Source of the DNA: an uncultured cyanobacterium
Lineage (GTDB): Bacteria; Cyanobacteriota; Cyanobacteriia; Cyanobacteriales; Nostocaceae
Assembly (NCBI GenBank): GCA_903848645.1
Contig: CAINGU010000098.1
Coordinates: 1-64,000, forward strand
Length of the DNA: 64,000 nucleotides
Direction of reading: 5' to 3'
Below the pieces are notes generated by a model, which searched no databases, was not told the DNA's origin, and saw nothing but the letters and a program-made list of their open reading frames with translations. Within the stretch, counting starts at the first letter, position 1, and each line of letters starts with the position of its first letter. A program made the position numbers and the translations under genes. This document shows positions 26,968 through 42,794 of this stretch, piece after piece.

Positions 26968-27071
26968 CTATCTCAAACTTTGCGCCTTTGCCTCTACCCT
27001 GCGGGATATCCTAACGGAGATTGTATCCTTTGCGCGAAACATAATTTTCTACAACTCCCTCATGTAATTGC

Positions 27072-27488: not shown

Positions 27489-27568
27489 AAGTTAGTAAAA
27501 AGAAATGCAGAGATTTACAATTATTAACTTAACAGTTTTTAACATTTATCCCCAGATTGATGAGTTAC

Positions 27569-27991
27569 TTACTCAATTTCTTTTTCCCAGTCTGGACAAT
27601 TTTCATCATCCCAACCATGAGGGTGCATACCACAGACTAACAAATTACCGCTATAAACCTGTCCGTGATAGTTGCTACAACCAATACAAGCAGCATTTTT
27701 TTCTATTGTAGCTTCTACTTTATATGGAAAACCAGGATCTATATCTTCTGAAATGTCCTCTAGTTCCCAGTAAATCTCCAAAATTGGTTCGGCTAAGTCT
27801 TGTAAAAACTGTTCGTGCAATGTACTAAAAGCATCAATATCGGCTAAAAATGTGCTTTGTACTTCTTCCGTAATTTCTTCCGTGATCTCAAAAAAAGCAT
27901 CTATCATGTCATTCATTCCCAGGAAGAACTCCTCTACCTCATCAGCCACGGTTTCGATCATGCCTATTAAGTCTTTTTGCCACTGTTCCAT
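27569..27991 (-). CDS. Acidic cyanobacterial protein with a C-terminal Cys cluster, unknown
   Basis: A 140-residue, very acidic protein. Residues 1-80 are helical and amphipathic (VEEFFLGMNDMIDAFFEITE). The C-terminal 40 residues carry CIGCSNYHG, then VCGMHPHG and ENCPDW, giving four Cys and three His that could bind zinc or an iron-sulfur cluster. No signal peptide or membrane helix is present. The same C-terminal spacing is common in hypothetical proteins of Nostocales, but I do not know a function. It is upstream of queF on the same strand (80-bp gap), so they may be cotranscribed. Confidence 0.8.
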   Translation of the reverse strand: MEQWQKDLIGMIETVADEVEEFFLGMNDMIDAFFEITEEITEEVQSTFLADIDAFSTLHEQFLQDLAEPILEIYWELEDISEDIDPGFPYKVEATIEKNAACIGCSNYHGQVYSGNLLVCGMHPHGWDDENCPDWEKEIE

Positions 27992-28138
27992 AACTTAATG
28001 CCCTTCCTGGCTAAAAACATGACGCTTAACGCCATCTGGCTGGAAATGCTAGAGTACAAGGTAATTAGAAGCATTTTGGATATAGCATCACTTTTCTAGA
28101 ATTAAATGTTACTCATACCCAAAGTGAAAAATTACTTT

Positions 28139-28543
28139 TTACGGTTCACGTTGCAACCGTTTTAACTCTTCCTGTAGTTCTAGCACTTGATCGCGTAGGT
28201 GATCTACATTATTGCGATTTTCTTTATTTTCTTTTTTCACCTCTTTTCCATTTGCTTCTTCCTCATCATCATCAAGGATATTAATCCGCCGAGGTTCAGA
28301 AGGGGCTGTTTTTTCAGGTGTTTGTCCAGATGTTGGCTGCTGTTGAGCTTGCTTCATCATATCTTCGACGAAGCGGCGAGCTTCTTCTGTGTTCATCTCG
28401 CCTTTGGCTACCATTTCATCTGCTAATTTTTGGACTTGTGATCGCAGTTCGGTTAATTTCCCCCCAGCTTTTTCGCCAGCATAAGAGGCTAACCCAACGC
28501 CGAGATAAAAAGCTTTTTGTACAATATCTCCAAAACCAGGCAT
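28139..28543 (-). CDS. Phasin-like / PHA-regulator-like small protein
   Basis: A 134-residue protein. Residues 1-65 resemble the PhaF/PhaI-type helical domain (FGDIVQKAFYLGVGLASYAGE; KLTELRSQVQKLADEMVAKG; MNTEEARRFVEDMMKQ). A Pro/Glu-rich linker follows, and a C-terminal coiled coil (HLRDQVLELQEELKRLQRE). Related proteins coat storage granules or form oligomers; in cyanobacteria they are mostly uncharacterised. It starts 27 bp downstream of the SRP RNA gene on the same strand and may share its transcript. Confidence 0.8.
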   Translation of the reverse strand: MPGFGDIVQKAFYLGVGLASYAGEKAGGKLTELRSQVQKLADEMVAKGEMNTEEARRFVEDMMKQAQQQPTSGQTPEKTAPSEPRRINILDDDEEEANGKEVKKENKENRNNVDHLRDQVLELQEELKRLQREP

Positions 28544-28569
28544 TGCTGCTGAAAGCTCCTACAAATAAG

Positions 28570-28673
28570 GCGACCCGGAGACTACGCCTACCACAAGCAT
28601 CCCTTATTGCTGCTACCTTCCGGTCCTGACAAGATTTGGGCGTTGAAGTTGCATAGATCCAGGTCTTCCACCA
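28570..28673 (-). ncRNA. ffs: Signal recognition particle RNA (4.5S type)
   Basis: On the minus strand the conserved SRP domain IV core is plain: GTCAGGACCGGAAGGTAGCAGC in outline (CAGGACCGGAAGG plus AGCAGC at about 28607-28630), with outer helices pairing GGTGGAAGACC-side sequence to the GGGTCGCC end. The length of about 104 nt fits the bacterial small SRP RNA without an Alu domain. It binds Ffh to target membrane proteins. Ends are approximate. Confidence 0.93.
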
Positions 28674-28702
28674 TCATAACACTAAAATTCAAAATTTGTG
28701 TA

Positions 28703-28969
28703 TTATTCCAAAATAATTCGCCATTCAAAAAGTTCGTAGTTGACACAATCGTTCTGTACCAAGGGATCAGCTAATACTATTGCCTGTGCTTCATCCATTG
28801 AGGTAGCCTCAAATAACATCATTCCGCCACCTTTTTGCGCCCAATAACCTGTTTTGGCTTTGTGTCCTTTAGCAATCAACTCTTGGACATAAGCTCTGTG
28901 TGCAGGTACATATTGGTCAAAGGTGGGTTTATCAACCTTACCAGTTTCAATTTTGACAAACCAAGGCAT
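28703..28969 (-). CDS. YciI-like protein
   Basis: An 88-residue protein of the YCII superfamily: FVKIETGKVDKPTFDQYVPAH, HRAYVQELIAKGHKAKTGYW, GGGMMLFEATSMDEAQAIVLADPLV. The conserved His (AHRAY) and Asp (ADPL) that form the putative active site are present. Members have a ferredoxin-like fold; a general reaction is not established. It lies just upstream of ffs on the same strand. Confidence 0.9.
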   Translation of the reverse strand: MPWFVKIETGKVDKPTFDQYVPAHRAYVQELIAKGHKAKTGYWAQKGGGMMLFEATSMDEAQAIVLADPLVQNDCVNYELFEWRIILE

Positions 28970-29125
28970 AGTTCGGATAGAATTTTAGATTAGTGATTTC
29001 TTATTTTATAGGACTTACGCATTGATAGAAAATAGCAAATATGTGGTAAGCGTTTTAGTAATTTATGATGATGCTTGATTTAACAAAAGTGAAACCCAAT
29101 CTGCGTAAACCAGTTACTATACATT

Positions 29126-30511
29126 ATGCACAAAAGTTTTAGATATCAAATACCATTGCTGCTGACATTTTGTTTATTTACTAACTTATTACCTGCGGCG
29201 GGTGCAGTTGTCTGTCCAACGGATGTTAAAGAATTAAAAATAGCTGGCTATTATGATAGGGATGGTAGTAATGGCCGTAGCGGTAGAGATGGACGCAGCG
29301 GGACAAATCAGACTATAAATGCTGATGGTTCAGCGGTTAATCTTGACTTATCTGGGAAAGATGGTGAAGATGGCGAAGATGGTGAACCGGGTTCTCGTCC
29401 TAGTTGTCGAAATCACCGGGAGGAAGGACGAGATAATATTAATGCCCCCAATGGTGGTGATGGTGGCAACGGCGGAAATGGTGGCAATGGTGGTCAGAGT
29501 GGCGATCTCACGGTCTATTATACGAATTTGGCAGATTTAAAGAAAATTGCCGTTCGCGCTGTTGGTGGCGAAGGTGGACGGGGTGGACGGGGTGCTAGAG
29601 GTGCTGCGGGTTGTTCCTGTCGTCAGCGACGTTGGGAGCGAGAAAGCTGTACGGGAAGCCCTGGGACTCCTAATCGTCAATGTACTCGAAAAGTTTATCA
29701 GTGTTACGATGGACGCGATGGCAGTGATGGTAGAAATGGCCGTGATGGTAGAAATGGGCGATTAGGAATTTTGAGTATAGTTAGTGGTAAAGATGCCTTA
29801 GTAGATGATAAACCAACTGCGGAAATAGGAATTTCTCACTTAGCAAATCAACAATTCAATCTTTCTAAAAATAAATGGCAAATCCGTCAAGGGGCAAAAT
29901 CTTTACTGGCCATTGGTTCTGTAATTGCTGATGAATATCGAGAGTTTGAACGGCGTTTAAATGGAACTTTTAAGTTAGTTTGGTTAGAAAAGCAGGCTGT
30001 TGCAAACTTTGCTAATCAATCTGTAAAACTGACTTTAAATGATAACCAACAAATAGATATTGCTTTTCCTGAAAATCTTTGGGTTGATGGTACTGCTAAA
30101 ACTACAGGAAGTTTAACGGAGTACACTGTCAATCATGCTATTCCTAAAGAAGATGTCACCAAATTAGCTGTAGGTGAATTTGCTAATTCAGGACAAAATC
30201 TCAGTTTAAGAATAGTTGATTTAGCTGCTAAATCTGATGTTATCAATACTCAGTTTCGAGTCAAATATCGAGCGCAAGATAATTTTGATGATACTTTTAA
30301 TGCTCCAACTTTGTATGAAGGAGAAATTCCCCCAGATTTGGTAAGCAGTAGTTATAATAATTTTACTCTAGCTTTAGGTAAGTTAAAAATTCCTAATCAA
30401 GCTTTAAATCCAGGGGTAAAGGTTGATATTGAAGTTGTCGCAATTCGTTCTTTAGGTGGACGTTCTGCACAACAAAAAATTAGTTGGCAAGGGGTAATTC
30501 GTAAACGGTGA
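29126..30511 (+). CDS. Secreted collagen-like Gly-rich protein
   Basis: A 461-residue protein with a signal peptide (FRYQIPLLLTFCLFTNLLPA, then AAGAVVCP). The region 45-220 carries collagen-like Gly-X-Y runs and Gly-Asn runs (GRSGRDGRSG, GKDGEDGEDGEPG, GGDGGNGGNGGNGG, GRDGRNGRLG), interrupted by a Cys/Arg-rich insert (CSCRQRRWERESC and others; about six Cys). Residues 240-461 form a non-repetitive, beta-rich domain (LAIGSVIADEYREFERRLNG; IAFPENLWVDGTAKTTG). It is probably extracellular or in the outer envelope. The C-terminal domain is not recognised. Preceded by a small intergenic gap containing repeat-like DNA; monocistronic. Confidence 0.85.
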   Translation: MHKSFRYQIPLLLTFCLFTNLLPAAGAVVCPTDVKELKIAGYYDRDGSNGRSGRDGRSGTNQTINADGSAVNLDLSGKDGEDGEDGEPGSRPSCRNHREEGRDNINAPNGGDGGNGGNGGNGGQSGDLTVYYTNLADLKKIAVRAVGGEGGRGGRGARGAAGCSCRQRRWERESCTGSPGTPNRQCTRKVYQCYDGRDGSDGRNGRDGRNGRLGILSIVSGKDALVDDKPTAEIGISHLANQQFNLSKNKWQIRQGAKSLLAIGSVIADEYREFERRLNGTFKLVWLEKQAVANFANQSVKLTLNDNQQIDIAFPENLWVDGTAKTTGSLTEYTVNHAIPKEDVTKLAVGEFANSGQNLSLRIVDLAAKSDVINTQFRVKYRAQDNFDDTFNAPTLYEGEIPPDLVSSSYNNFTLALGKLKIPNQALNPGVKVDIEVVAIRSLGGRSAQQKISWQGVIRKR

Positions 30512-30515
30512 TATG

Positions 30516-30552
<37 letters not shown>

Positions 30553-30579
30553 AACGAACCACGAAGACACGAAGGACAC

Positions 30580-30639
30580 GAAGGAAGAAGGAAGAAGGAA
30601 GAAGGAAGAAGGAAGAAGGAAGAAGGAAGAAGGAAGAAA
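30580..30639. repeat. STRR heptamer GAAGGAA x 8.6
   Basis: Eight full copies and a partial copy of GAAGGAA in tandem, next to the AGGAGTC array and before the stop of the coiled-coil gene. Confidence 0.92.
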
Positions 30640-30667
30640 ATTTATTTAGCACCTGACTCCTTGCTAA

Positions 30668-31240
30668 TTATTTTCCCATATTGCGTTTGAGTTTTGCTAA
30701 TTCGTCTTGGGTTTCCCAATTGCGAAATGTGTCTTCTAAGTCGTCAAAATTACTGTTAGAATTAGTAGCAGCATTCCAACCATGAGTTTCTAACCTTTGC
30801 TGGGTTTGTGCTTTGGTTCTAGCTGTTTGGGCTTCGGCTGCTTTTGTTTGTACTTCTTGACGACGTTGTTGAATTTTGTGAAGTAGTTGTTGGGATTGGC
30901 TAATGCGTTCTTTTAAACCTTGCATATGTCCCCACATTTGATTTCCTTCTCGCAGTAGTGCAGCTTCTCGTTCTTGGGCTGGGGTGCTTAAATCTTGTCT
31001 ACCTGCGGCTTGGGCTTTTTGAATACGAATATGCCATTTTTGGATTTCTTGGGCTGTGGAGAGAATTTCATCCTCGGATCGCTTCTCTTGCAATTGTAAC
31101 TCGGCAATTAACTTTAATGTATCTTCTTCTTGTTCCCGCAGTTGTTCTAAAAGTGCTTCTAACTCTAAATGAGGGTTATTCCGCAAGAATTCTTCTAAAC
31201 GACTTTCTAAAAACCGACTTAAATCATCAAATAAACTCAC
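30668..31240 (-). CDS. Coiled-coil protein, TIGR04376-like
   Basis: About 191 residues from a GTG at 31240, which has GGAG eight bases upstream. An ATG frame open to 31438 would translate STRR and palindromic repeat DNA, so it is rejected. The start SLFDDLSRFLESRLEEFL with NPHLELEALLEQLREQEE matches the cyanobacterial TIGR04376 family. Most of the protein is a long charged coiled coil. The C-terminus has FRNWETQDELAKLKRNMGK. No membrane segment is seen and the function is unknown. Confidence 0.82.
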   Translation of the reverse strand: MSLFDDLSRFLESRLEEFLRNNPHLELEALLEQLREQEEDTLKLIAELQLQEKRSEDEILSTAQEIQKWHIRIQKAQAAGRQDLSTPAQEREAALLREGNQMWGHMQGLKERISQSQQLLHKIQQRRQEVQTKAAEAQTARTKAQTQQRLETHGWNAATNSNSNFDDLEDTFRNWETQDELAKLKRNMGK

Positions 31241-31248
31241 TGTTAAAA

Positions 31249-31252
31249 CTCC
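31249..31252 (-). promoter_or_regulatory. Ribosome site fixing the GTG start at 31240
   Basis: GGAG on the minus strand with an 8-base spacer to GTG. It supports the non-ATG start of the coiled-coil gene. Confidence 0.6.
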
Positions 31253-31288
31253 AACTATCGGATATATGTCTATTTTATAACAGTTAAT

Positions 31289-31330
31289 AGGTGACAGGTG
31301 ACAGGTAACAGGTAACAGGTAACAGGTAAT
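31289..31330. repeat. STRR heptamer AGGTRAC x 6
   Basis: Exactly six tandem heptamers: two AGGTGAC, three AGGTAAC and one AGGTAAT. Confidence 0.92.
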
Positions 31331-31380
31331 AGAAAAATTTTCTTCTTCCTTCCTTCTTCTGACTCTCGAATCCTGACTCC

Positions 31381-31402
31381 TGGGCGGGGAAACCCCGCCC
31401 CT
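31381..31402. repeat. GGGCGGGGAAACCCCGCCC palindrome
   Basis: A strong GC-rich hairpin between two minus-strand genes (the VanY-like stop at 31420 and the coiled-coil start at 31240). It resembles the palindromes after the GT4 gene and may terminate the VanY-like transcript. Confidence 0.6.
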
Positions 31403-31419
31403 ACTGATTCGGTGACAAA

Positions 31420-32301
31420 TTAAATTGGTGTTACCCAATATTTAATCCCTTGGATAATTTTTTGTTGTAATCCAAATTTGGGTAAATCATTTTCACTCCA
31501 ACCCAAATACGTCCAATGGGGAAGATCATTAACTACAGTCTGAAACCAGCCATTTTGATTTAAAGCCCGTCTTTGGGCTGATGTTGCTACTTGTAAATCA
31601 ATTGCTAATCCCCACAAATGTTGTGATGTGCCTGGGGGTGCAACTAATCCGAGAATTTTTGTTTCTTTTCCGGTTTTTACTCGTGTCAATGTTTCGCTAT
31701 TTGCGTATTTATTCCAAAATCTTAAATTAGTGGCAAAACTGCGAAGACAATCACCTGCATAACCTGATTTAAGAGCAATTCTTTCTAAAAGTTTGGCTTT
31801 ATTTAAAGCTTCAGCGGCAGTTTTTTGTAAATAACATTCTTGAGTGCCATCTACTAAAGTTATACTGATTGTATCTTGAAAAGATTTCGTTTCTAATTCG
31901 TTGTCTAAAATAGTTTTTTGTGGTAATTTAATTCCCGATTTTTGATTAATAAATACTGTTCCATAGGAACGCAGTAACGTATATTCAAACGTATCTACTT
32001 GGGGAATTGTGGGGATTTTGTTGGCAATTGTTGCTAAAAAACGCTGTTGATCGTCTAATTGCTGATCAGGAATAAATAGTGTATTTACAGATGCTGTTGA
32101 ATTATGACAAGGCACGCCAGAGTTAGTTACGCATTCTTTGACAATTTGCGGATTTGGTGTTAACTGACTTTGGGAAATTTTGTGAGCAAAGACTAAGGTA
32201 ACACTGACAAAAATAATTATAGTAACAAATGCTGCTATTTTCAGAATTAGTTTCACGAAAATATTACTTATTTTGAAAATTTCGATTTCATCATATCGCA
32301 A
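31420..32301 (-). CDS. VanY-like D-Ala-D-Ala carboxypeptidase (peptidase M15 fold)
   Basis: A 293-residue protein with an uncleaved-type N-terminal membrane segment (residues 18-40, LILKIAAFVTIIIFVSVTLV), so anchored and facing the periplasm. The C-terminal M15 domain has LERIALKSGYAGDCLRSFAT, then the zinc motif SQHLWGLAIDL (His and Asp ligands) and the third ligand in LPHWTYLGW. The middle region contains SYGTVFINQKSG. VanY-type enzymes trim the terminal D-Ala from peptidoglycan stems. It is unlikely to be a vancomycin resistance gene here, since no vanHAX partner is visible; wall maintenance is more plausible. Confidence 0.87.
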   Translation of the reverse strand: MRYDEIEIFKISNIFVKLILKIAAFVTIIIFVSVTLVFAHKISQSQLTPNPQIVKECVTNSGVPCHNSTASVNTLFIPDQQLDDQQRFLATIANKIPTIPQVDTFEYTLLRSYGTVFINQKSGIKLPQKTILDNELETKSFQDTISITLVDGTQECYLQKTAAEALNKAKLLERIALKSGYAGDCLRSFATNLRFWNKYANSETLTRVKTGKETKILGLVAPPGTSQHLWGLAIDLQVATSAQRRALNQNGWFQTVVNDLPHWTYLGWSENDLPKFGLQQKIIQGIKYWVTPI

Positions 32302-32344
32302 AATATTTTAAAATTTAGGACATTAAGGCACAATGCAAGGATTT

Positions 32345-32377
32345 AGATCCCCGGATTCTTAGAGAAGTCGGGGATCT
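32345..32377. repeat. Palindromic repeat AGATCCCCGG...GGGGATCT
   Basis: A 33-bp hairpin repeat between divergent genes; a related hairpin is at 46212-46244. It is upstream of both flanking genes and so not a terminator for either. Confidence 0.75.
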
Positions 32378-32489
32378 TGTTTTTTGTAGCTTTAGATAAA
32401 ATTCCTGTGTATAATTTGAGAATGAAGTTTATTTTTTAGTTCATAAATATTTATATTAACCACATTCATGCTTAATCCTTTTTAGCAAA

Positions 32490-33326
32490 ATGATGAATTT
32501 AAAAAACTCCCGAATACAAACTTTAGCCATTTATGTAATACTAAGTGTGATCGCTATAATCATGCTATTTCCATTGTTATGGCTCATCAGTACATCATTA
32601 AAATCACCAACAGAAAATATCTGGCAGTCACCACCGCAACTATTACCCAGTCAACCGACATTAGAAAACTTCTCTAAAGTTTGGCAATCTTTACCCTTTG
32701 GCACATATTTATACAACAGTATTCTTGTATCTGTATTAACAGTGGGCTTGAATTTGTTGTTTTGTTCCTTAGCGGCTTATCCCTTAGCTAGACTCTCATT
32801 TGTGGGCAGAAACGGAATTTTTATTGCCATTGTGACAACAATTATGATTCCCTTCCAAATTGTCATGATTCCTTTATATATTTTGACAGTGCAATTAGGG
32901 TTGAGAAATACTTATTTAGGGGTAATTTTCCCTAGTTTAGCCTCTGCCTTTGGTATATTTTTGTTACGGCAGGCTCTCATAGGTGTGCCAAAAGAAATTG
33001 AGGAAGCTGCTCGCTTAGATGGGAGTTCTGAGTTAGGATTATGGTGGTACATAATGCTACCTGCCATTCGCCCAGCACTGATTACCCTGGCTATTTTTGT
33101 CTTTATTGGCGCTTGGAGCGACTTTTTGTGGCCTTTGATTGTCATCCAAGATGAAAGTTTATACACTTTACCCTTGGGAGTTGCTAAGTTAGCGGGGACA
33201 TTTTCTTTAGATTGGCGATTGGTCTCGGCTGGTTCAGTAATTTCTATCACTCCAGTGTTAGTATTATTTTTATTACTCCAAAAATACATTGTTCCTACGG
33301 ATACGGGTAGTGGAGTCAAGGGATAA
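32490..33326 (+). CDS. Carbohydrate-type ABC transporter permease (MalG/UgpE family)
   Basis: A 278-residue protein with six membrane helices (IYVILSVIAIIMLFPLLWLI and others) and the MalG-type EAA motif IEEAARLDGSSELGLWWYIM with LP after it. The N-terminal part has TSLKSPTENIWQSPPQLLP, typical of the sugar importer family. No second permease, binding protein or ATPase lies beside it. Its stop is 2 bp before the start of the CBS-photoreceptor kinase, so they form one transcript. The substrate is unknown. Confidence 0.92.
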   Translation: MMNLKNSRIQTLAIYVILSVIAIIMLFPLLWLISTSLKSPTENIWQSPPQLLPSQPTLENFSKVWQSLPFGTYLYNSILVSVLTVGLNLLFCSLAAYPLARLSFVGRNGIFIAIVTTIMIPFQIVMIPLYILTVQLGLRNTYLGVIFPSLASAFGIFLLRQALIGVPKEIEEAARLDGSSELGLWWYIMLPAIRPALITLAIFVFIGAWSDFLWPLIVIQDESLYTLPLGVAKLAGTFSLDWRLVSAGSVISITPVLVLFLLLQKYIVPTDTGSGVKG

Positions 33327-33328
33327 AA

Positions 33329-35941
33329 ATGCAGACAAAAAAAATCTCCAATTTAGAATTAGAACGGATAATTATTCCTGCTCCCGTGACATTGACAAGT
33401 GATACCCTTGCCATTAATGCAGTCAGATTAATGAGTCAGGTAGATAGTATTTGTCATCTCACCAAGGATGTAGTATCAGATACTCATCTCCAGAATGTGG
33501 AACAAGCCAGTTGTGTTCTTGTTCTAGATCAAGAATATTTAGTAGGTATTATTACGAAACAAGATGTCATAAACTGTATAGCAATGGGGGTAAATTTAGA
33601 GCAAGTTACCCTAGCAGAGGTAATGATTAAACATCCAGTTACCTTGAAAAAATCAGAATTTACCAATATTTTGGTGGTTCTAAATTTATTTCGTCAATAT
33701 AAAATATGTCACCTAGCAGTGGTAGATGATCAAGGTGGGTTAGTAGGAATTATCAACCGAAGTAGTGTATTAAATAGTATTGATCCACTGGAAATGTATG
33801 AAGAAAACCATTTTTTACGAGAAAAGGTTGATCAACTAGAAACTGAAAAAGCCGAGATATTACAAAATCAAAATACTGAATTAGAAAGTCAAGTTCATGA
33901 ACGGACTACGGAATTAATAGAGCAGATTAAGATAGATCACTTGCTGCTTATGCTTTCACAAAGAATTCGTAACTCTTTTGATTTAGATGTAATCTTGCAA
34001 ACTGCTGTTTCCGAAATTCAAGAATATTTGCAAATAGATCGGGTAATTATCTATGAATTTAACAGAGAATGGAGTGGTAAAGTTGTCGCTGAAGCACTAA
34101 GAACAGAAGAAGCTTCTTTGTTAGGTGTTGTTCTTCATGATCCTTGTTTTGCCCCTGATTGGGTTGACCATTATATGAATGGTCGGGTGCGAAAAATTCA
34201 TGATATTTATGATTGTCAGTTGTCTCCTTGTCATGTTGAATTATTAGCAACAAATCATATCCGTGCCAACCTAGTTGTACCAATTGTTTATCAAAATCAG
34301 TTATGGGGCTTAATCGGCGCTCATCAAGTTTCCCAACCCCGAATTTGGCAATCTTTAGAAGTTGATTTGCTAGAAAAGTTATCTATTCAATTAGCGATCG
34401 CTATTCAACAATCCCAACTTTATCAACAAGCTCAAAAAGAATTAAAAGAGCGAATTGCCGCACAAACAAAACTCAAAAAACTGAACCACAAATTAGAATT
34501 GCGAGTGATTGAACGTACGGAAGAATTACATCAAAGTCAAGAATATTTACGTCAAATTACCGAAAATATTGACAGTGTTTTCTGGATAAAAAGTATAAAA
34601 GAGGGTAAACTTCTCTATGTTTCACAAGCCTATCAGAAAATTTGGGGCTATTCATGTCGGGAACTATATCAATCATCCCAAAAATGGGTAGATTCTATTC
34701 ATCCAGAAGATATGCCGCACATTATTGCAGCTTTACCCAAGCAAATTTATGGTGGATATAATGAACAGTATCGCATAATTCGAGGTGATGGAGAAATCCG
34801 CTGGATCAATGATCGAGCTTTTCCTATCTGCGATCAAAAAGGTGATATTTACCGGATTGCGGGAATTGCTGAAGATATTACTCAACAAAAACAGATTGAG
34901 GAAAAACTGAAATTGCAAGAGCGAGCGATTGCTGCTAGTAATAATGGTATTGTGATCGTTGATGCCAGACTACCAGACAAAAATACAATTTTTGTTAACA
35001 CTGCATTTGAAAAAATCACAGGTTATTCAGCACAGGAAGTGATCGGAGGCAACTGCCGTTTTCTGCAAAGTAAGGATCGAAAACAACCAGGTTTAAAGGA
35101 AATTCGCACAGCTTTACAAGCTCAACAAAATTGCAAAGTTACCCTCCGTAATTATCGTAAAGATGGTAGTCTGTTTTGGAATGAACTGAGCATTTCTCCC
35201 ATTTTCGACGATCAAGGAAATCTTACTCATTTCATCGGGATTCAAAACGATGTAACTGCCCGCAAACAGGCAGAAGAACAAATAAAATCTTCTCTAAAAG
35301 AAAAAGAAATCTTGCTCAAAGAAGTTCATCATCGTGTCAAAAATAATCTCTTAGTAGTATCTAGTCTTTTAGATTGGCAAGCTGACTATATTACAGATCC
35401 AGCAGCTATCAAGATTTTTGAACAAAGTCAATATCGTATTCAATCAATGGCACTTATCCATGAAAAACTTTATCAATCTAAAAATATAGCTGAAATTGAT
35501 TTAAGTGAATATTTAGAAAATCTGGCTAAACAGTTAGAATATTCCTTAAATTCAGACTACCGCAAAATTACTATTAACTTTGATCTGCATCCCATTTTTT
35601 TGAATATCGAAACAGCTACTCCTTGTGGTTTAATTGTCAATGAATTAATTACTAATGTCTTTGAACACGCTTTCCCAAATCATGGTACAGGACAAATATG
35701 GTTAAGAGTAAAAGAAAATGCCCAAAAGCAAGTCACTATCACTATTGAAGATAATGGTGTAGGTTTACCCGCAGATTTGGATTTTCAGAATACAGAATCT
35801 TTAGGTTTGCAGTTAATTTGTTTATTAACTAAACAGTTAGAAGGAGAAATTACCGTCAGTCGTGATCATGGCACTAAATTTGTTTTAACTTTTTCAGAAC
35901 TACGTTATCAGAAGAGAATTGAAAATTATGACCAGCGTTAA
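33329..35941 (+). CDS. CBS - cyanobacteriochrome GAF (DXCF) - PAS - LOV - HisKA_2 histidine kinase
   Basis: An 870-residue kinase. Two CBS motifs (about 10-150; VLDQEYLVGIITKQDVINC, VVDDQGGLVGIINRSSV) are followed by a coiled coil. The GAF (about 205-360) has the DXCF motif DPCF at 271-274 (C273) and the canonical bilin Cys C301 in SPCH, so it is a likely blue/green- or blue/teal-type cyanobacteriochrome. A first PAS (about 405-520) has WIKSIKEGKLLYVS. A second (about 530-650) is a LOV domain, with C576 in GGNCRFLQ, NYRKDGSLFWNELSISP and FIGIQNDVT. The kinase is HisKA_2: EVHHRVKNNLLVVSSLLDW with H668, N box in IVNELITNVFEHAF, and EDNGVGLP. It starts 2 bp after the sugar permease stop and overlaps the next gene. 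Confidence 0.92.
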   Translation: MQTKKISNLELERIIIPAPVTLTSDTLAINAVRLMSQVDSICHLTKDVVSDTHLQNVEQASCVLVLDQEYLVGIITKQDVINCIAMGVNLEQVTLAEVMIKHPVTLKKSEFTNILVVLNLFRQYKICHLAVVDDQGGLVGIINRSSVLNSIDPLEMYEENHFLREKVDQLETEKAEILQNQNTELESQVHERTTELIEQIKIDHLLLMLSQRIRNSFDLDVILQTAVSEIQEYLQIDRVIIYEFNREWSGKVVAEALRTEEASLLGVVLHDPCFAPDWVDHYMNGRVRKIHDIYDCQLSPCHVELLATNHIRANLVVPIVYQNQLWGLIGAHQVSQPRIWQSLEVDLLEKLSIQLAIAIQQSQLYQQAQKELKERIAAQTKLKKLNHKLELRVIERTEELHQSQEYLRQITENIDSVFWIKSIKEGKLLYVSQAYQKIWGYSCRELYQSSQKWVDSIHPEDMPHIIAALPKQIYGGYNEQYRIIRGDGEIRWINDRAFPICDQKGDIYRIAGIAEDITQQKQIEEKLKLQERAIAASNNGIVIVDARLPDKNTIFVNTAFEKITGYSAQEVIGGNCRFLQSKDRKQPGLKEIRTALQAQQNCKVTLRNYRKDGSLFWNELSISPIFDDQGNLTHFIGIQNDVTARKQAEEQIKSSLKEKEILLKEVHHRVKNNLLVVSSLLDWQADYITDPAAIKIFEQSQYRIQSMALIHEKLYQSKNIAEIDLSEYLENLAKQLEYSLNSDYRKITINFDLHPIFLNIETATPCGLIVNELITNVFEHAFPNHGTGQIWLRVKENAQKQVTITIEDNGVGLPADLDFQNTESLGLQLICLLTKQLEGEITVSRDHGTKFVLTFSELRYQKRIENYDQR

Positions 35942-37697
35942 AATATTAATTGTTGAAGATGAACTTTTGATTGCTAATAATTTAGCCAGAAAACTAACTA
36001 AGTTGGGATATACAATTGTAGAAATTGTTTCTTCAGGGGAAAATGCTATTCGGATAGCTGGAGAAAAACAACCAGACTTAGTGCTAATGGATATTGTCAT
36101 TAAAGGTGACATGGATGGTATACAAGCTGCTGCTCAAATAGCTAAAAAATATGGGATTCCAGTTATTTATTTAACTGCCTATGCTGATAATGAAACTCTA
36201 AATAGAGCTAAAGACACAACTCCTTTTGGTTATATTCTTAAACCATTTAAGGATAGAGAATTACAAGTAACAATTGAAATTGCTCTGCAAAAACATCAAG
36301 CTGATTTAGAGCAAAAAAGACAATACATGGAACAACTTAAGGAGGTTGAGCAAAAATTCAGCCAAGTTCAAAAATTTGATCCTCTCACTAAGTTATTAAA
36401 TCGTCATGGTTTACAGGAGGAGTTTGATCACCAAGTAGAAGAATTTATTCATAATTTGATTCAGCCTAAAGAAGCATCTCCAAGTTATTTTCCCTATCTT
36501 CCTATTTTCTGTTTAAGTTTTGATCGTCTAGAACGACTTTATCAATCTCTTGACCCAGCAAATAGCGATTTACTAATCCTGACATTAACAGAAAGGTTAA
36601 AATCAGTAATTGCAGAAAATGGTATTGTTGCTCGAATTAATAGTAATGAGTTTGTCATTATTGCCAAAGCCATAGAATATCGTACCCAAGCAGTTGCTCT
36701 AGCTCAATCTTTGCTACAAAGTATCTCCAAGCCAATTCTAATTAATAGCCAAGAAATATTTATTACTGCTAGTATAGGCAGTGCATTTTACTATCATCCC
36801 TACCATTTAGAAACCTTATTACAACATTGTCGGATTGTTATAGCCAAAATCCAAAAAGGGGGAGGTAACGCCTATGAATTCTATAACCATAATCTAGATA
36901 ATACTACTGCAACCAAACAAATCACTTGGGAATCAGATTTGCACCATGCACTAGAACTTAATCAATTTCAGTTATACTTTCAACCCATAGTCAATATCAA
37001 AACTGGCGAAATTGTCGCTGCTGAAGCTTTAATTAGATGGTTACATCCTGAATATGGAATTATCCTCCCTAAAGATTTTATTCCCGTAGCTGAACAACAA
37101 GGTTTGATAATTGAACTTGGTAAATGGGTATTTAGAAATACCTTTAGATGTCTAGGAGAGAGGAAAAAGGCTGGACTACCAATCATAAAAATGTCTGTTA
37201 ATCTCTCTTCCCGTCAGTTATCTCATCCCGCACTATCTCAAGAACTGACTAATATATTAATTGAGCAAAAGGTCAGTGCTAAATTCATTTCTCTAGAAGT
37301 GGATGAAAGCATTTTTGAAGAAGATAGCAACTTAGCTGTCCGTCGTCTGCGCTTAATTAAAGCCTTGGGATTTGAAATAACTCTTGATAGTTTTGGTAGT
37401 GATAAATCATCATTAAACTATCTGAGTAAGTTTCCATTTGATACCGTAAAAATGGATAGCTCTCTGGCGAAAAATTTAAAACTGACACCAGCAAACGAAA
37501 CCATTGTTGCTAGTATTATTGATTTAGCCCGAAAATTAAATATGGAAATTGTTGCGAAAGGAGTAGAAAGAAAAAATGAACTCCAATTTTTCTACCAGCA
37601 TCAATGTTATCATGTCCAAGGTAATCTCTTTAGTCGCCCTATTCCGGCATCAGAATTTATAAATTTACCTAATTCCTTGGTAATTCCTAGCATTTAG
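35928..37697 (+). CDS. Receiver - degenerate GGDEF - EAL protein
   Basis: About 589 residues from the ATG at 35928, inside the 3' end of the kinase (14-bp overlap; a TTG at 35919 is also in frame). The receiver is intact (VEDELLI; LMDIVIKGDMDG; YILKPF). The GGDEF domain has lost its motif: RINSNEF at about 236-242. The EAL domain keeps EALIR (366-370), VNLSSRQL, LEVDES, VKMDSS and HVQGNLFSRP. It lacks the second metal Asp of DDFGTG (D487-S488 in LDSFGSD) and has AKGVE for AEGVE. It is either an inactive c-di-GMP binder or a weak phosphodiesterase. Translational overlap marks it as the kinase's partner. Confidence 0.93.
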   Translation: MTSVKILIVEDELLIANNLARKLTKLGYTIVEIVSSGENAIRIAGEKQPDLVLMDIVIKGDMDGIQAAAQIAKKYGIPVIYLTAYADNETLNRAKDTTPFGYILKPFKDRELQVTIEIALQKHQADLEQKRQYMEQLKEVEQKFSQVQKFDPLTKLLNRHGLQEEFDHQVEEFIHNLIQPKEASPSYFPYLPIFCLSFDRLERLYQSLDPANSDLLILTLTERLKSVIAENGIVARINSNEFVIIAKAIEYRTQAVALAQSLLQSISKPILINSQEIFITASIGSAFYYHPYHLETLLQHCRIVIAKIQKGGGNAYEFYNHNLDNTTATKQITWESDLHHALELNQFQLYFQPIVNIKTGEIVAAEALIRWLHPEYGIILPKDFIPVAEQQGLIIELGKWVFRNTFRCLGERKKAGLPIIKMSVNLSSRQLSHPALSQELTNILIEQKVSAKFISLEVDESIFEEDSNLAVRRLRLIKALGFEITLDSFGSDKSSLNYLSKFPFDTVKMDSSLAKNLKLTPANETIVASIIDLARKLNMEIVAKGVERKNELQFFYQHQCYHVQGNLFSRPIPASEFINLPNSLVIPSI

Positions 37698-37723
37698 AGG
37701 AAGATAGAAGGAGTTAAAAATAA

Positions 37724-38089
37724 ATGCAACCTGCGAGAACATTTGAAGATTTAATAGTTTGGCAAAAAGCACATCAATTTGTGCTAGGAATATATCAATT
37801 AACTGCAAATTTTCTCAAATCAGAAATATATGGACTTACTTCTCAGTTTAGACGCGCATCAGTTTCTATTCTTGCAAATATCGCTGAAGGATTTAAGAAG
37901 AAAGGAAATATAGATAAAGTAAGATTTATGAATATTACACAAGCTTCTTTAGAAGAATGTAGATACTATCTTATTCTCACAAATGATTTAGGATATGGTG
38001 ATACATCAGAATTGATGTTAAAACTGCAAGAAGTTAGTAAATTATTAGATAGTTATGCAAAAGCTATTCTCAACAATTCTACCTCCTAA
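37724..38089 (+). CDS. Four-helix bundle protein (S23/IVP family)
   Basis: A 121-residue helical protein with family features: RTFEDLIVWQKAHQFVLGIYQ, YGLTSQFRRASVSILANIAEG, RFMNITQASLEECRYYLI. Family members (TIGR02436) were first found inside 23S rRNA intervening sequences, but here the gene is free-standing, 27 bp after the EAL gene, and probably the last gene of the transcript. Function is unknown. Confidence 0.9.
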   Translation: MQPARTFEDLIVWQKAHQFVLGIYQLTANFLKSEIYGLTSQFRRASVSILANIAEGFKKKGNIDKVRFMNITQASLEECRYYLILTNDLGYGDTSELMLKLQEVSKLLDSYAKAILNNSTS

Positions 38090-38151
38090 CCTGGATTTCT
38101 TCTTCTTCTTTCTGACTCCTGACTCCTGACTCCTTATATTTAGAAAAGTAC

Positions 38152-39477
38152 ATGGCCAATTCTCGTTTACAGTTATTAGTTTTAAGCAATGGTCATGGAG
38201 AAGATATCATTGCTGTGCGGATTATCCAGGCTCTGCAACAATTACCTGTTCCACCAGATATTTTTGCTTTACCAATAGTTGGTCAAGGACGTGCTTACCA
38301 AAAAATAGATGTTCCCATGATTGGTAAAGTGCAAACTATGCCTTCTGGTGGTTTTATCTATATGGATGGCCGCGAATTAATGCGCGATGTGGGCGGTGGC
38401 TTGGTGCAGTTGACTCTTAATCAAATTCAATCTGTACGCCGTTGGGTAAGTTCACAGACAAAGTTAGGTAATCAAAAAGCTGTTTTAGCTGTGGGGGATA
38501 TTGTCCCTTTATTATTTGCAGCGTTCAGTAGTGCTAATTATGCCTTTGTAGGTACGGCTAAATCAGAATATTATGTGCGTGATGAAGCGGGATTATTACC
38601 GAGAAAATCTAAATCCGCATGGTGGGAAAATTTTTCTGGTTCAATTTACCATCCTTGGGAAAGGTGGTTAATGAGTCGTCGTCGTTGTCGCGCTGTGTTT
38701 CCCAGAGATTCTCTGACCACGGAAATTTTAAAAAAATGGCCAATTCCCGCTGTGGATGTGGGGAATCCCATGATGGATGGTTTACAGACAACTCTGAACG
38801 CACAGCAGTTTTATCGTCCTGATGCTGAACAGGAGGAAGTGATTCGTCCTTTGATTGTGACTCTGTTGCCTGGTTCTCGTGCGCCGGAAGCTTACAATAA
38901 TTGGGAAATCATCATGATTGCTGTATCCGCGCTGATGGCTGGTTTACGACAACCAGGTTCTGTATTCCACTCTGCGGGAACGATGATTTTTTTAGGAGCA
39001 ATTTCTCCTGGTTTAGATTGTAGTATTTTATCCCAAACTTTACATATTCAAGGTTGGCGACTTTGTGAAGAATCTCCTTTACCAATTTCTGACCCCGACA
39101 GCTTGACTTTTAAACAAAAAAATGCTTATTTCATCTTGACCCAACAAGCTTATAATGACTGCTTGTATTGGGGTGATGTAGCCATTGCAATGGCCGGAAC
39201 TGCAACAGAACAATTTATCGGTTTAGGAAAACCAGCGATCGCTATTCCCGGTCATGGTCCCCAATATAACCCCGGTTTTGCAGAAGCCCAAAGTCGGCTG
39301 TTAGGACTATCTCTCACCCTAGTTAACCAACCATCACAAGTTCTCCCAGCCATCCAATCTCTACTCAAAAATCCTGACTTTTTACATGAAATTGCCGAAA
39401 ATGGAATTCAGCGCATGGGACGTGCAGGCGCAGCACAACGGATTGCAGAATGTTTACAAGAAAGATTGGTTAGGTAA
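38152..39477 (+). CDS. Lipid-A-disaccharide-synthase-related protein
   Basis: A 441-residue protein of the TIGR03492 family: LQLLVLSNGHGEDIIAVRI at the start, FALPIVGQGRAYQ, MPSGGFIYMDGRELMRDVGG, RCRAVFPRDSLT, then VTLLPGSRAPEAYNNW and GTATEQFIGLGKPAIAIPGHG typical of GT-B nucleotide-sugar binding. It is distantly related to LpxB; the reaction is unproved, and cyanobacteria usually have a separate LpxB. Its final two codons and stop codon lie within the GGTAATT repeat array that begins at 39473. Confidence 0.9.
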   Translation: MANSRLQLLVLSNGHGEDIIAVRIIQALQQLPVPPDIFALPIVGQGRAYQKIDVPMIGKVQTMPSGGFIYMDGRELMRDVGGGLVQLTLNQIQSVRRWVSSQTKLGNQKAVLAVGDIVPLLFAAFSSANYAFVGTAKSEYYVRDEAGLLPRKSKSAWWENFSGSIYHPWERWLMSRRRCRAVFPRDSLTTEILKKWPIPAVDVGNPMMDGLQTTLNAQQFYRPDAEQEEVIRPLIVTLLPGSRAPEAYNNWEIIMIAVSALMAGLRQPGSVFHSAGTMIFLGAISPGLDCSILSQTLHIQGWRLCEESPLPISDPDSLTFKQKNAYFILTQQAYNDCLYWGDVAIAMAGTATEQFIGLGKPAIAIPGHGPQYNPGFAEAQSRLLGLSLTLVNQPSQVLPAIQSLLKNPDFLHEIAENGIQRMGRAGAAQRIAECLQERLVR

Positions 39478-39549
39478 TTGGTAATTGGTAATTGGTAATT
39501 GGTAATTGGTAATTGGTAATTGGTAATTGGTAATTGGTAATTGGTAATT
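39473..39549. repeat. STRR heptamer GGTAATT x 11, overlapping a stop codon
   Basis: Eleven perfect tandem copies of GGTAATT. The first copy contains the stop codon of the upstream lipid-A-synthase-related gene, so the array was inserted or expanded at that codon. Confidence 0.95.
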
Positions 39550-39560
39550 GGGAGAAATTT

Positions 39561-39636
39561 CTTTCTCTCTTCTTCTTTCTTCTTCTTTCTTCTTTCTTCT
39601 TCTTTCTTCTTCTTTCTTCTTTCTCCTGACTCCTTT
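39561..39636. repeat. Pyrimidine-rich repeat TTCTTCTTTC
   Basis: Irregular copies of TTCTTCTTTC between convergent genes, next to the GGTAATT array. Ends in a TCCTGACTCC unit. Confidence 0.8.
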
Positions 39637-39637
39637 G

Positions 39638-40360
39638 TCAAACTACCAAACCAGAACGTAAAGCGCGAACTGCGGCTTGGGTACGATCATCAGCACAGAG
39701 TTTATTTAAAATATTGCGAACATGAGTTTTTACTGTTCCCACGGTGATATATAACTTCTCAGCGATTTGTGAATTACTACAACCAGCCACAATCAACTCT
39801 AAAATTTCCAGTTCTCGTTGGGTGAGGGGATAGGTTTCTAAAACTTGTTCGTATGCTGTATCTAGGGCTTCGATTTTTACCGTTTTCGGCTTATCCGATG
39901 ATTGCTGATCACCAGGAACACCTTGACGCATTTTTCGTAATACTACATTAGCGATCGCTGGATCAATCCAAGAGTTACCACTGAAAGTTACTTGTACAGC
40001 TTCAATAAATTTATTAACACTTGTATCCTTCATATAATAAGAATCTGCTCCTGCTGCAAAAGCCGCCAAAACAACATTTTCTGTATTATTCATCGTCAAA
40101 ATCAAGATCTTTGTCTGGGATTGTCCTGTTTCCGCCTGATAACGTCTAAATTTGCGCGTCAGTTCAATTCCATCCATATCAGGTAAACCAATATCTATCA
40201 CAGCTACATCTGGTTTAGTGGTTTCTAAAAGCTTGAGTCCCAGAGTGGCATTGGCCGCCTCACCAATCACTTTAAAACCGCCATGTAACTGCAATTCAGT
40301 TTTAAGTCCCATGCGGGTTAAATCATGATCTTCAATTAACAGAATACTAATTTCACTCAT
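39638..40360 (-). CDS. NarL/FixJ-type response regulator
   Basis: A 240-residue protein. The receiver (1-125) has LIEDHDLTRMG, the phosphoacceptor in VAVIDIGLPDMDGIEL, LILTMNN and YYMKDTSV. The linker is about 50 residues (RKMRQGVPGDQQSSDK), longer than usual. The LuxR HTH is LTQRELEILELIVAGCSNSQIAEKL in two pieces, with TVGTVKTHVRNILNKL. It binds DNA as a dimer when phosphorylated. No kinase is adjacent; it is convergent with the lipid-A-synthase-related gene. Confidence 0.93.
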   Translation of the reverse strand: MSEISILLIEDHDLTRMGLKTELQLHGGFKVIGEAANATLGLKLLETTKPDVAVIDIGLPDMDGIELTRKFRRYQAETGQSQTKILILTMNNTENVVLAAFAAGADSYYMKDTSVNKFIEAVQVTFSGNSWIDPAIANVVLRKMRQGVPGDQQSSDKPKTVKIEALDTAYEQVLETYPLTQRELEILELIVAGCSNSQIAEKLYITVGTVKTHVRNILNKLCADDRTQAAVRALRSGLVV

Positions 40361-41313
40361 CTTGTTACACCCATGATAATCAGAGCTTTTACACCACTAA
40401 CACTAACTAAAACTTTTTCTTATTTTTCTTATAAATTTCATCTAATTCACCCAACCCCAGCATAGATGATCCTATAACTATTGAACATCTATCTAAAGAA
40501 GTAATAAATTGTAGATTTTGCAATTTAGATAGATATAAAAATCTAGCTAAAGGTATATAGATATTTATCCCAAAACAAATGAGATTATTGAGACGAATCA
40601 GAAAAATTACAATTAAAGCATGATCACCAAATTTGCAATAAACTCCATAGCAGTTGCCAGATCAGATAGATTTTTCATAAAACACAGCTAATTCTACGCT
40701 ATCAGACACAATAGGACTTTCCGCTCTTTTCTCTACTAATTAGCTGGATACAATTAAATATACAACCTCTCTGCTAAACTTCTTGCCTACAAAGGTAAAG
40801 GCTTTAAAACCACCTATTTATAAGAGGTAATAATACGGATTTAAGGAGTGATTTTTATTTAGCCATTACCACCATTATTTAAGTAAAAATCTCAAGCTGG
40901 TGGTACACAATGTTTCCATGCAACTCTCACTAATGGGTGAGGACAGTTGATGAATTACTAATTTACAATATTTTTAACTGGATCAAGTATTTTATTTTAC
41001 TTGAGATTAAATCTACTAATCCAGCAAAACATCATGTTCATTGTCAATGTAAAGATTTACCAAAATTCAGCAAATTTAGGCAAAAAAATTGGATTCAATA
41101 GTGCAAAAAGGCGCAAAATTCATTAAGATACTATGAGTAGAGAATAATTACTATGAGGTGATAAATCGCAAACAAATAATCTGTAAAAACCCTGAATTCA
41201 TCCGGGTCTATTCATTCTTGGAGACAGCAAACATCATTATTTGTATACTCTAGAGACTGTAAAATCACAAATGCTGAACATCAATCTGTATTGAACAGCG
41301 AAGTTAAAAACCG
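40361..41313. other. Long intergenic region, no gene or known RNA seen
   Basis: 953 bp, AT-rich, with no ORF of note in six frames. The last 300 bp before 41314 presumably carry the promoter and 5' leader of the receiver-kinase gene. No riboswitch or tRNA pattern was recognised. The size is unusual in this otherwise compact window. Confidence 0.45.
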
Positions 41314-42669
41314 ATGGAAGAGAAACTAAAAATTTTAGTTGTAGAAGATGATGAGGTAGACCGAGTGATAGTACGTCTAGCCATGACTGAAGCAGGTATG
41401 AGGATGGAACTTGATGAAGTCAAAGATGGGAATCATGGGTTCTCTGCTCTCATCAATAACCACTATGACTGCGTATTTCTCGACTATCACTTACGGAATC
41501 AAGATTGCTTAACATTAATTCACAAAATAAATTCTTCAGGAATCAAAGTTCCTTTAATCATCCTCATCAATTCAGGAAATGAAGCAATAGCTGAAGACTG
41601 TATCCAAGCAGGTGCTACCCAGTATTTTATCAAGTCTACATTATCTTCAGCAACCATAGCTCAAATGTTACGTAGTGCAATTCGTATACATCATACAAAA
41701 ATGCAGCTAGATTTAGTAAATCAACAACTTCAAGAAAGTCGTGAACAGCTAAGTTTTCAGGAGCAAGAATTAACAGCACAACAAGAACAGATTCAGTTAC
41801 AAAACCTCGAACTTTTGGCAACATCAAGGTTAAAATCATTATTTTTAGCCACTATATCCCATGAGTTAAGAACTCCAATGAATGCGATTATTGGATTTTC
41901 GCAGATTCTCTTACGTCCGAAATTTGGTCTATTGACAAATCAACAAATGGAGATGGTAGAGAAAATTTTTAGTAATGGTAAAGATCTACTGGTGAAGATC
42001 AATGAAATCATCGAATTTTCTCAGCTAGAAGCCGGGAAATTAGAACTAAATCCCAAAACATTGGATTTATCAGAAGTTGTTAATAATACGGTGACAGAAA
42101 TCCGTTCTCTAGCTGAAGCCAAAAATTTATCTTTGCTAGTTAAAACAAATTTAGAAAATAAACTAGTATTTAATGATGCAGCGCGATTACGGCAAATTTT
42201 AATTCATTTGCTGACCAATGCTGTTAAATTTACAGAATCGGGAAGTATTTGCGTAGAAATCAAAGAAAGCAATAAAAATCAAGTTACAATTACTGTACAA
42301 GATACAGGAATCGGTATTGCTTCTAGAGATTTTCAAAACATTTTTGCCGCATTTCATCAAGTTGATCAAGGCCTCAGCCGTAAATATTCGGGTATAGGTT
42401 TGGGTTTAGCTATTATTAATTCACTAGTACGGATAATGGGAGGAGAAATATCCATAGAAAGTCAATTAGGAATCGGTTCAATGTTTAAAATAGAATTACC
42501 ACGGAAAATTAAGTTAGTCGGAGATTTAGATGATGTAGTTTTTCTTCCCCATCAAAATCATTTTTATTCTGTACATACCCCTCATAAAGCATCATTGAAA
42601 AAGGAGTCAGGAGTCAGTAGCCAGGAGTCAGAATCAATCAGTCGAGGATTCACACCCGCAACTGATTGA
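41314..42669 (+). CDS. Receiver - histidine kinase hybrid (N-terminal receiver)
   Basis: A 451-residue cytoplasmic protein. The receiver (1-125) has VVEDDEVDRVI, CVFLDYHLRNQD and YFIKSTLS. A coiled coil of about 50 residues follows, then the H box ISHELRTPMNAI with H183, a HATPase with LIHLLTNAVKF, DTGIGIASRDF and GIGLGLAIINSL. Such receiver-first kinases receive phosphate from a separate kinase. The last 20 residues (from about codon 430) are encoded by an inverted-repeat element inserted across the 3' end, giving a tail of SGVSSQESESISRG type not expected from the family. Confidence 0.93.
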   Translation: MEEKLKILVVEDDEVDRVIVRLAMTEAGMRMELDEVKDGNHGFSALINNHYDCVFLDYHLRNQDCLTLIHKINSSGIKVPLIILINSGNEAIAEDCIQAGATQYFIKSTLSSATIAQMLRSAIRIHHTKMQLDLVNQQLQESREQLSFQEQELTAQQEQIQLQNLELLATSRLKSLFLATISHELRTPMNAIIGFSQILLRPKFGLLTNQQMEMVEKIFSNGKDLLVKINEIIEFSQLEAGKLELNPKTLDLSEVVNNTVTEIRSLAEAKNLSLLVKTNLENKLVFNDAARLRQILIHLLTNAVKFTESGSICVEIKESNKNQVTITVQDTGIGIASRDFQNIFAAFHQVDQGLSRKYSGIGLGLAIINSLVRIMGGEISIESQLGIGSMFKIELPRKIKLVGDLDDVVFLPHQNHFYSVHTPHKASLKKESGVSSQESESISRGFTPATD

Positions 42670-42766
42670 AGACCACCAAATCTACGATTTAGTGGGGGTG
42701 CAAAAACGCCGGTTATTCATCCGCCACTCGCACAGAATTCATTCTGACTTCTTCTTCCTGACTCCT
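42602..42766. mobile_element. MITE-like inverted-repeat element, 165 bp
   Basis: The ends AGGAGTCAGGA and (inverted) TCCTGACTCCT form terminal inverted repeats, extended inward to GTCAGAAT/ATTCTGAC. Inside are a CAATCAGT/ACTGATTG stem (42635-42668) and a hairpin CCACCAAATC-TAC-GATTTAGTGG. It has no coding capacity. The left 68 bp lies within the receiver-kinase gene and gives its stop codon. Similar repeat sequences are familiar from other Nostocales genomes. Confidence 0.7.
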
Positions 42767-42794
42767 CTATTCTCTTATAAAAAGTTGATTAATT

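Follow-up and report, generated by a model that had tools for sequence, protein, structure and literature searches.

A candidate light-regulated kinase–response regulator pair with a predicted non-enzymatic GGDEF-EAL output in one genus of Nostocaceae

In Anabaena sp. PCC 7120, the multisensor kinase CdgK, which contains PAS and GAF domains, and the receiver (REC)–GGDEF response regulator (RR) CdgS are encoded by adjoining genes (All2875–All2874) that are co-transcribed in one operon; their phosphorelay is reported to raise cyclic di-GMP (c-di-GMP) and to control cell size, and FMN binding is reported for one of its PAS domains in CdgK (PMC9927289). In Thermosynechococcus, SesA, SesB, SesC and Tlr1612 tie phycoviolobilin-binding GAF domains to c-di-GMP enzymes (PMC8846402, PMC5871770). 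PPHK of Leptolyngbya sp. JSC-1 (PDB 6oap) is a bilin-sensing histidine kinase with two inputs, the second of which, according to a review that cites it, is phosphorylation and not flavin. FimX, in which GGDEF and EAL are both degenerate, is described as a catalytically inactive pseudo-enzyme on which twitching motility depends (PMC7148300). Here, we analysed a locus in a 64,000-nucleotide stretch of DNA from an uncultured Nostocaceae cyanobacterium (assembly GCA_903848645.1, contig CAINGU010000098.1, positions 1 to 64,000, forward strand; hereafter the window), in which the gene for a kinase with predicted bilin and flavin sensors is followed directly by that for an RR with two degenerate c-di-GMP domains. 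A preliminary description made from the sequence had named this locus as a candidate undescribed system. That proposal holds in part: the sensors, the kinase class and the kinase–receiver pairing are already known, whereas the dead-enzyme output is unusual and the pattern of loss among related genomes instructive.

The three genes that the preliminary description had placed in series lie where it put them, on the plus strand: a MalG-type ATP-binding cassette (ABC) sugar permease subunit (32490–33326), the kinase (33329–35941, 870 residues) and the RR (35928–37697, 589 residues). Between the permease stop codon, whose last base is 33326, and the kinase ATG at 33329 lie 2 bp; the kinase stop codon ends at 35941 and the RR ATG lies at 35928, an overlap of 14 bp. 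The longest open reading frame of the RR begins at an in-frame TTG at 35919, and the ATG at 35928 was taken as the start because it is common to the ortholog alignment. Kinase and RR genes overlap in all four copies of the pair, those of the window and of three genus-mates (G013, G014 and G004), by 14 bp in three and by 11 bp in G013. The 2-bp gap between permease and kinase recurs in three of the four and is 155 bp in G004, these spacings in the relatives being read from match ends.

Every domain proposed for the kinase is supported by Pfam. From the N terminus, these are two CBS domains (about residues 18–155, 33380–33793; 3.4e-13, two stretches), a GAF domain (residues 218–359, 33980–34405; 1.6e-20), a PAS domain (residues 429–514, 34613–34870; PAS_3, 2.2e-33), a LOV domain (residues 539–644, 34943–35260; PAS_9, 3.5e-32) and a HisKA_2–HATPase_c core (35321–35896). 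The core is of the HisKA_2 (HWE-related) class, with HisKA_2 (1.8e-27) and HATPase_c (6.6e-12) both over the Pfam cut-offs, and we take His668 of its HRVKN motif (35330–35332) to be the likely phosphoacceptor. Orthologs of the kinase are 91% and 81% identical to it. In the GAF domain, Cys273 of a DPCF motif (34139–34150) and the canonical Cys301 of a PCH motif (34229–34231) align, together with the Trp that follows DPCF, with the DXCF-bearing solved chains 2m7u, 4fof and 3vv4, which we take to be TePixJ; both cysteines are invariant in the three GAF-bearing copies. A DXCF cyanobacteriochrome carries the canonical Cys and a second Cys in the DXCF motif of its GAF domain, and typical DXCF domains are described as blue/green (PMC11284453). 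The window GAF has both features and, given the two cysteines, is expected to photoconvert between a blue-absorbing and a green-absorbing state. The LOV domain aligns over nearly its full length with solved LOV domains (best, 7r5n at 3.1e-41), through the motifs CRFLQ, NYRKDG, FWN and FIGIQ. It has the flavin-contact residues and the adduct cysteine, Cys576 of NCRFLQ (35054–35056), and is expected to form a flavin–Cys adduct in blue light. The photodomains of the preliminary description thus have their chromophore cysteines, and chromophore binding is for both a prediction from sequence. In the PAS domain between GAF and LOV, no photosensor signature was seen.

The RR comprises a receiver (residues 6–116, 35943–36275; Response_reg, 1.3e-23), a GGDEF domain (36375–36869; 5.3e-17) and an EAL domain (36936–37640; 5.6e-66). 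In the receiver, the phosphoacceptor Asp55 (36090–36092), Thr83 and Lys105 are invariant across the copies. The label 'degenerate' given earlier to the GGDEF–EAL module is borne out, as NSNEF, LDSFG and AKGVE replace GGDEF, DDFG and AEGVE. At the GGDEF position (36639–36653), the window, G014 and G004 read NSNEF and G013 reads NNNEF, so none of the four copies has GGDEF, and the domain is predicted to be inactive. The EAL domain keeps EALIR; all four copies carry DSFG and AKGVE, which are also present in a remnant of the pair in G002, whereas solved MorA has DDFG and AEGVE. Two acidic EAL active-site residues are thereby replaced in every copy, the second Asp of DDFG by Ser488 (37389–37391) and the Glu of AEGVE by Lys544 (37557–37559). 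An active GGDEF domain is described as needing (G/A)G(D/E)EF, and phosphodiesterase activity as requiring both EAL and DDFGTG, the latter supplying two metal-binding aspartates (PMC7148300). Neither the motif of an active diguanylate cyclase nor the complete motif set of an active EAL phosphodiesterase is found in any of the four copies. Because the receiver residues are kept and the GGDEF and EAL motifs are lost, the RR is predicted to be phosphorylatable but neither to make nor to cut c-di-GMP, and the state of its EAL motifs would fit a c-di-GMP receptor of the FimX type.

The pairing of such a kinase with a receiver extends well beyond the family. At the order level, a kinase match at E ≤ 1e-85 occurs in 33 of 243 genomes, with three candidates scored per genome, and 29 loci (L013, L015 and L073–L099) were compared. 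At 21 of them the match runs through to the HisKA_2 end of the kinase core, and a receiver gene lies within about 420 bp behind it in all 21; at the other eight, where matches are mainly in the sensor domains, no receiver follows within the 1.5 kb examined. The 21 receiver genes indicate that kinase plus RR is the functional unit. Of the single unit proposed earlier, this part stands, on the overlap in four of four copies and the 21 distant pairs, and the sugar part falls away. Twenty of the 21 regions were read more widely (L119 is without a listed core match): the distant kinase cores are 46–60% identical to that of the window and the receivers of the next gene 52–69%. Ten of the distant RR proteins were run through Pfam, and all ten consist of REC followed by HisKA and HATPase_c; the pairs are thus similar to that of the window in kinase core and receiver and differ in their output, a second kinase. 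Among the ten remaining RRs, one is a REC–EAL protein with intact motifs (L111) and two are receivers only (L100, L115). As far as seen, the kinase–receiver pairing is widespread and the dead GGDEF–EAL output is peculiar to this lineage.

From these observations we propose a light-regulated two-component pair, with blue/green and blue inputs, whose output is a non-enzymatic pseudo-enzyme that probably reads c-di-GMP. The states of the GAF bilin (blue/green) and the LOV flavin (blue) would set the activity of the HisKA_2 kinase, which would autophosphorylate, probably on His668. The phosphate would pass to Asp55 of the receiver encoded by the next gene, a transfer suggested by the observed gene pairing. 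The receiver would then drive a GGDEF–EAL module that, by its motifs, has no residues with which to make or cut c-di-GMP. The RR would most likely be a reader, its EAL shell binding c-di-GMP or a protein partner as in FimX, under the control of light through phosphorylation. Rated as a whole, we hold this chain to be somewhat more probable than its alternatives combined; the kinase-to-receiver transfer is its surest step and the reading of c-di-GMP its least sure. A bolder version, in which Lys544 perhaps replaces the lost metal and the two-chromophore kinase controls by phosphorylation a c-di-GMP reader whose active site has turned into a binding site, is tentative, and we think it rather less likely to be right than wrong.

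Set beside the described systems, the locus has the layout of CdgK–CdgS, a kinase gene followed directly, here with the 14-bp overlap, by an RR gene with c-di-GMP domains. CdgK is described as a hybrid kinase that spans the membrane and contains HisKA, REC and Hpt, whereas the window kinase is of the HisKA_2 class with a DXCF GAF; CdgS is described as making c-di-GMP, whereas the window RR is without catalytic motifs. In this comparison, made by description, the pair would share the logic of CdgK–CdgS up to the receiver; its end differs, and there the closest functional analogy may be FimX. Solved chains named FimX match the RR at 4.7e-23 to 8.6e-18, a distant match only, whereas active-type MorA matches it far better (2.7e-69). 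SesA is of the DXCF type with an N-terminal CBS. The Ses proteins and Tlr1612 differ from the window pair in that sensor and enzyme form one active polypeptide, and the Tlr1612 model scores 148 bits for kinase residues 189–662 and 236 bits for the RR, far below its family cut-off of 1600. PPHK provides the closest solved GAF (5e-43); it has the canonical Cys, but DQYF in place of the window's DPCF, so that no second Cys is present. In literature listings that take in few subscription papers, no title or abstract opening described such a kinase, a result that falls short of proving absence in print. Most of the photosensory c-di-GMP proteins tabulated in one paper are cyclases or phosphodiesterases and so alter the c-di-GMP level (PMC8846402). 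If the window RR is phosphorylated in response to light and does no more than read c-di-GMP, its wiring would differ from theirs, and light and c-di-GMP would meet in one non-enzymatic protein.

Some of the distant kinases may combine photosensors in a similar way. The 1931-residue kinases of L104–L107 and L110, from another genus, unite a LOV-type domain (NCRILQ or NCRLLQ) with two GAF domains, of which one has PCH or PCY, in a single polypeptide; a receiver gene lies behind, which at L104, the locus for which it was determined, encodes a REC–HisKA–HATPase protein. They are candidates for another dual bilin/flavin sensor, which weakens the idea that the combination is unique to the window kinase. 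At L103 and L108, LOV-like domains 66–69% identical to the window LOV have Ser for the adduct Cys (NSRFLQ).

Within the family, the pair is rare. The kinase is matched at E ≤ 1e-120 in four of 217 genomes, the window's own included, and the RR at E ≤ 1e-100 in five, the fifth being the G002 remnant; the best four candidates per genome were scored for the kinase and the best six for the RR, a depth that should not hide an ortholog and could hide weaker kin. A search of public genome contigs gave two loci, in Anabaena sp. UHCC 0187 and Dolichospermum sp. UHCC 0259. We compared the DNA that follows the permease in the window, 15 genus-mates and four other family genomes. Among the 16 same-genus genomes, the pair is whole in three (window, G013 and G014), is present with a kinase without GAF in one (G004), has left remnants in six and has no trace in six. 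The preliminary description had called for a check of conserved synteny and allowed that the gene order might be confined to one strain; the order is found in four genomes, with remnants in six more. In G004, kinase residues 215–360 have been lost in frame, and with them the GAF domain; the CBS, PAS and LOV domains and the kinase core are retained. Kinase and RR are kept or lost together within the genus.

The remnants differ in extent. G002 retains the beginning of the kinase, two segments from its interior and the EAL region (best match, 385 bits), G010 retains kinase codons 8–31 (48.1 bits) and G012 the last 28 RR codons (56.0 bits). G005, G008 and G009 retain 19 of the 20 bases that cover the permease stop and kinase gene bases 1–15 (best matches, 40.1, 44.1 and 32.2 bits). 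As a control, 671 stretches of 113 bases (plus strand) were taken from these genomes; a single one matched the island with at least 28 bits, scoring 32.2; as this equals the G009 score, the G009 remnant rests on its position and its likeness to those of G005 and G008. A piece matching the end of the four-helix-bundle gene that follows the pair in the window persists in G005 and G008. In G001, G003, G006, G007, G011 and G015, and outside the genus in G089 and G102, only chance matches of at most 11 bases to the pair were seen. At such traceless loci, a gene related to lipid-A-disaccharide synthase (LpxB-related) starts 36–58 bp past the permease stop. In G102, of a different genus, the two genes overlap by 1 bp (locus L039), so this arrangement probably predates the island. 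In G066 and G203, the permease alone was matched within the stretch compared. Where present, the pair thus forms an island flanked by the permease and the LpxB-related gene.

A tree of 18 taxa was built from the permease, LpxB-related, LuxR and VanY-like genes; G066 and G203 were dropped for missing genes, and G014 covers 1710 of about 3750 sites. The remnant-bearing genomes fall into three lineages: G002 with G012; G005 with G008 and G009, sister to the intact G013; and G010. On this tree the pair has therefore been lost at least three times, a count that leaves aside a five-genome clade without remnants (G001, G003, G007, G011 and G015). Support is 100% for G002 with G012, for G005 with G008 and G009, and for the sister relation to G013. 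It is weaker for G006 with G010 (84), for the node joining the first two remnant lineages (82) and at the base of the genus (57–66). Between the window and G013, the synonymous divergence (dS) of the pair is 0.54–0.55, similar to the 0.34–0.62 of the flanking genes, and therefore fits vertical descent. This range and the presence of the pair in three relatives led us to reject a recent horizontal arrival in the window strain only. It looks as if the pair was inherited within one genus and repeatedly lost.

Selection was gauged from ratios of non-synonymous to synonymous divergence (dN/dS), as simple pairwise estimates without standard errors between the window and G013, G014 and G004. The kinase ratio is 0.190 against G013 and 0.222 against G014, and the RR ratios are 0.236, 0.242 and 0.179 against G013, G014 and G004. 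With ratios in the pair of 0.18–0.24, the whole copies are under purifying selection and thus maintained. In the kinase, GAF, PAS, LOV and core give 0.06–0.21 against G013 and G014, and the CBS part 0.40–0.46; against G004, LOV gives 0.14 and the core 0.15. As G004 has lost GAF and its LOV and core are constrained, LOV input alone seems enough to hold the gene under selection there. Over all comparisons CBS is the least constrained kinase domain (0.40–0.49, versus 0.06–0.35 for the others), which weakens the suggestion that the kinase senses adenylate status, though it is no test of it. In the RR, REC gives 0.11–0.17 and GGDEF up to 0.36 (G013). In the comparison with G014, dS is 0.50 over the LOV-coding stretch of the kinase gene (34916–35278) and 0.09 over the GAF part, a contrast that suggests local recombination inside the gene. 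One lineage has dropped the bilin domain only, and in others the pair is largely or entirely gone, whereas the adjoining permease was kept; the whole, GAF-less, remnant-bearing and empty loci among genus-mates would form a natural series in which to ask what each photosensor contributes.

Several observations weigh against the proposed light-regulated c-di-GMP reader. The remnants in six of 16 genomes show that many strains can do without the pair. The EAL domain has a dN/dS of 0.34 in the closest comparison, window versus G014, and against G004 the kinase is looser in CBS (0.49), the linker behind CBS (0.39) and PAS (0.35); moreover, the G004 kinase was read from two contigs that meet, and end, inside the gene. 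Relatives offer no argument for a c-di-GMP output, because the HisKA_2 kin feed REC–HisKA–HATPase proteins in ten of ten cases. Finally, the AlphaFold model of the RR is poor (three sequences, mean predicted local distance difference test score 47), so the c-di-GMP pocket is not readable. The GGDEF ratio of up to 0.36 and the remnants of the pair in six genus-mates, from three lineages, would be expected if the RR were a decaying gene on its way out, without downstream function. We consider this unlikely: the frames are open, the whole-RR ratio is 0.18–0.24 in three of three comparisons, REC is more constrained still, and the EAL substitutions are identical in all four copies. About as unlikely, in our estimate, is that the RR retains a weak or conditional phosphodiesterase activity, by which the pair would set the c-di-GMP level as CdgK–CdgS does. 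The Glu and Arg of EALIR, Asn425, Asp487, Lys508 and Gln564, which we take to be functional EAL residues, are all kept, and the EAL score is 222.7 bits. This activity would nevertheless have to persist with Ser488 and Lys544 in all four copies, one of them within DDFGTG, the motif described as required for its two metal-binding aspartates (PMC7148300).

The preliminary description went further and joined sugar uptake, adenylate status and light in one operon, with the permease regulated with or by the kinase pair. The 2-bp gap in three of four copies and the shared strand agree with this, as does the junction between permease and kinase, at which no terminator-like site was found. The last point bears on one of the refuting conditions of the preliminary description, a terminator of the permease's own; no such site was found at any gene junction, in a scan that was at chance level overall (four found, 3.2 expected). 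In Anabaena PCC 7120, moreover, the sugar ABC components GlsC, GlsP and GlsQ are reported to be tied to septal junction function (PMC6463045), GlsP being all0261 (PMC12421839, Table 1). Distribution argues strongly the other way. The permease (Pfam BPD_transp_1, 9.1e-16) is a core gene of the family and not specific to the light pair: at E ≤ 1e-60, 203 of the 217 family genomes have a match, a single one in each except for two in G227 and G229, against four genomes for the kinase, and 12 of the 15 genus-mates keep it without a working pair. Its dN/dS (0.069, 0.061 and 0.063 against G013, G014 and G004) lies well below that of the pair. At pair-less loci the LpxB-related gene stands close behind the permease, so the slot can take any co-directional gene. 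On these grounds the circuit was rejected as very improbable, and the sugar-uptake link of the pair is probably one of neighbourhood only. The permease would be a long-standing neighbour, perhaps transcribed together with the pair but functionally separate from it, and position explains the 2-bp gap better than the functional link that it suggested. The permease scores below the cut-offs of the NCBIfam GlcU, UgpE and MalG models, and no NCBIfam model is over its cut-off, so none of these names is claimed for it. A partner permease, ATPase or binding protein is not directly beside it, the adjoining genes being the VanY-like gene and the light pair; this check listed 17 open reading frames in 27000–43000, seven of them run through Pfam, and leaves room for remoter transporter partners.

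The VanY-like D-alanyl-D-alanine carboxypeptidase gene (31420–32301, minus strand; Pfam VanY, 1.7e-7) is divergent from the permease, adjoins it in genus-mates too and marks the left edge of the conserved context. To the right, the same-strand array runs on past the RR with an S23/IVP-type four-helix-bundle gene (37724–38089, plus strand; Pfam 1.3e-33, TIGR02436) and then the LpxB-related gene (38152–39477, plus strand; TIGR03492, 1.2e-147). Three of the four copies of the pair, those of the window, G013 and G014, are followed by the four-helix-bundle gene; that of G004 is not. Between the VanY-like gene and the permease, a hairpin, GATCCCCG...CGGGGATC, is followed by a T run (32346–32376); its inner loop exceeds what the terminator scan admits. 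A looser copy of this hairpin lies at 46213–46243, and shuffles of the window gave 0 matches.

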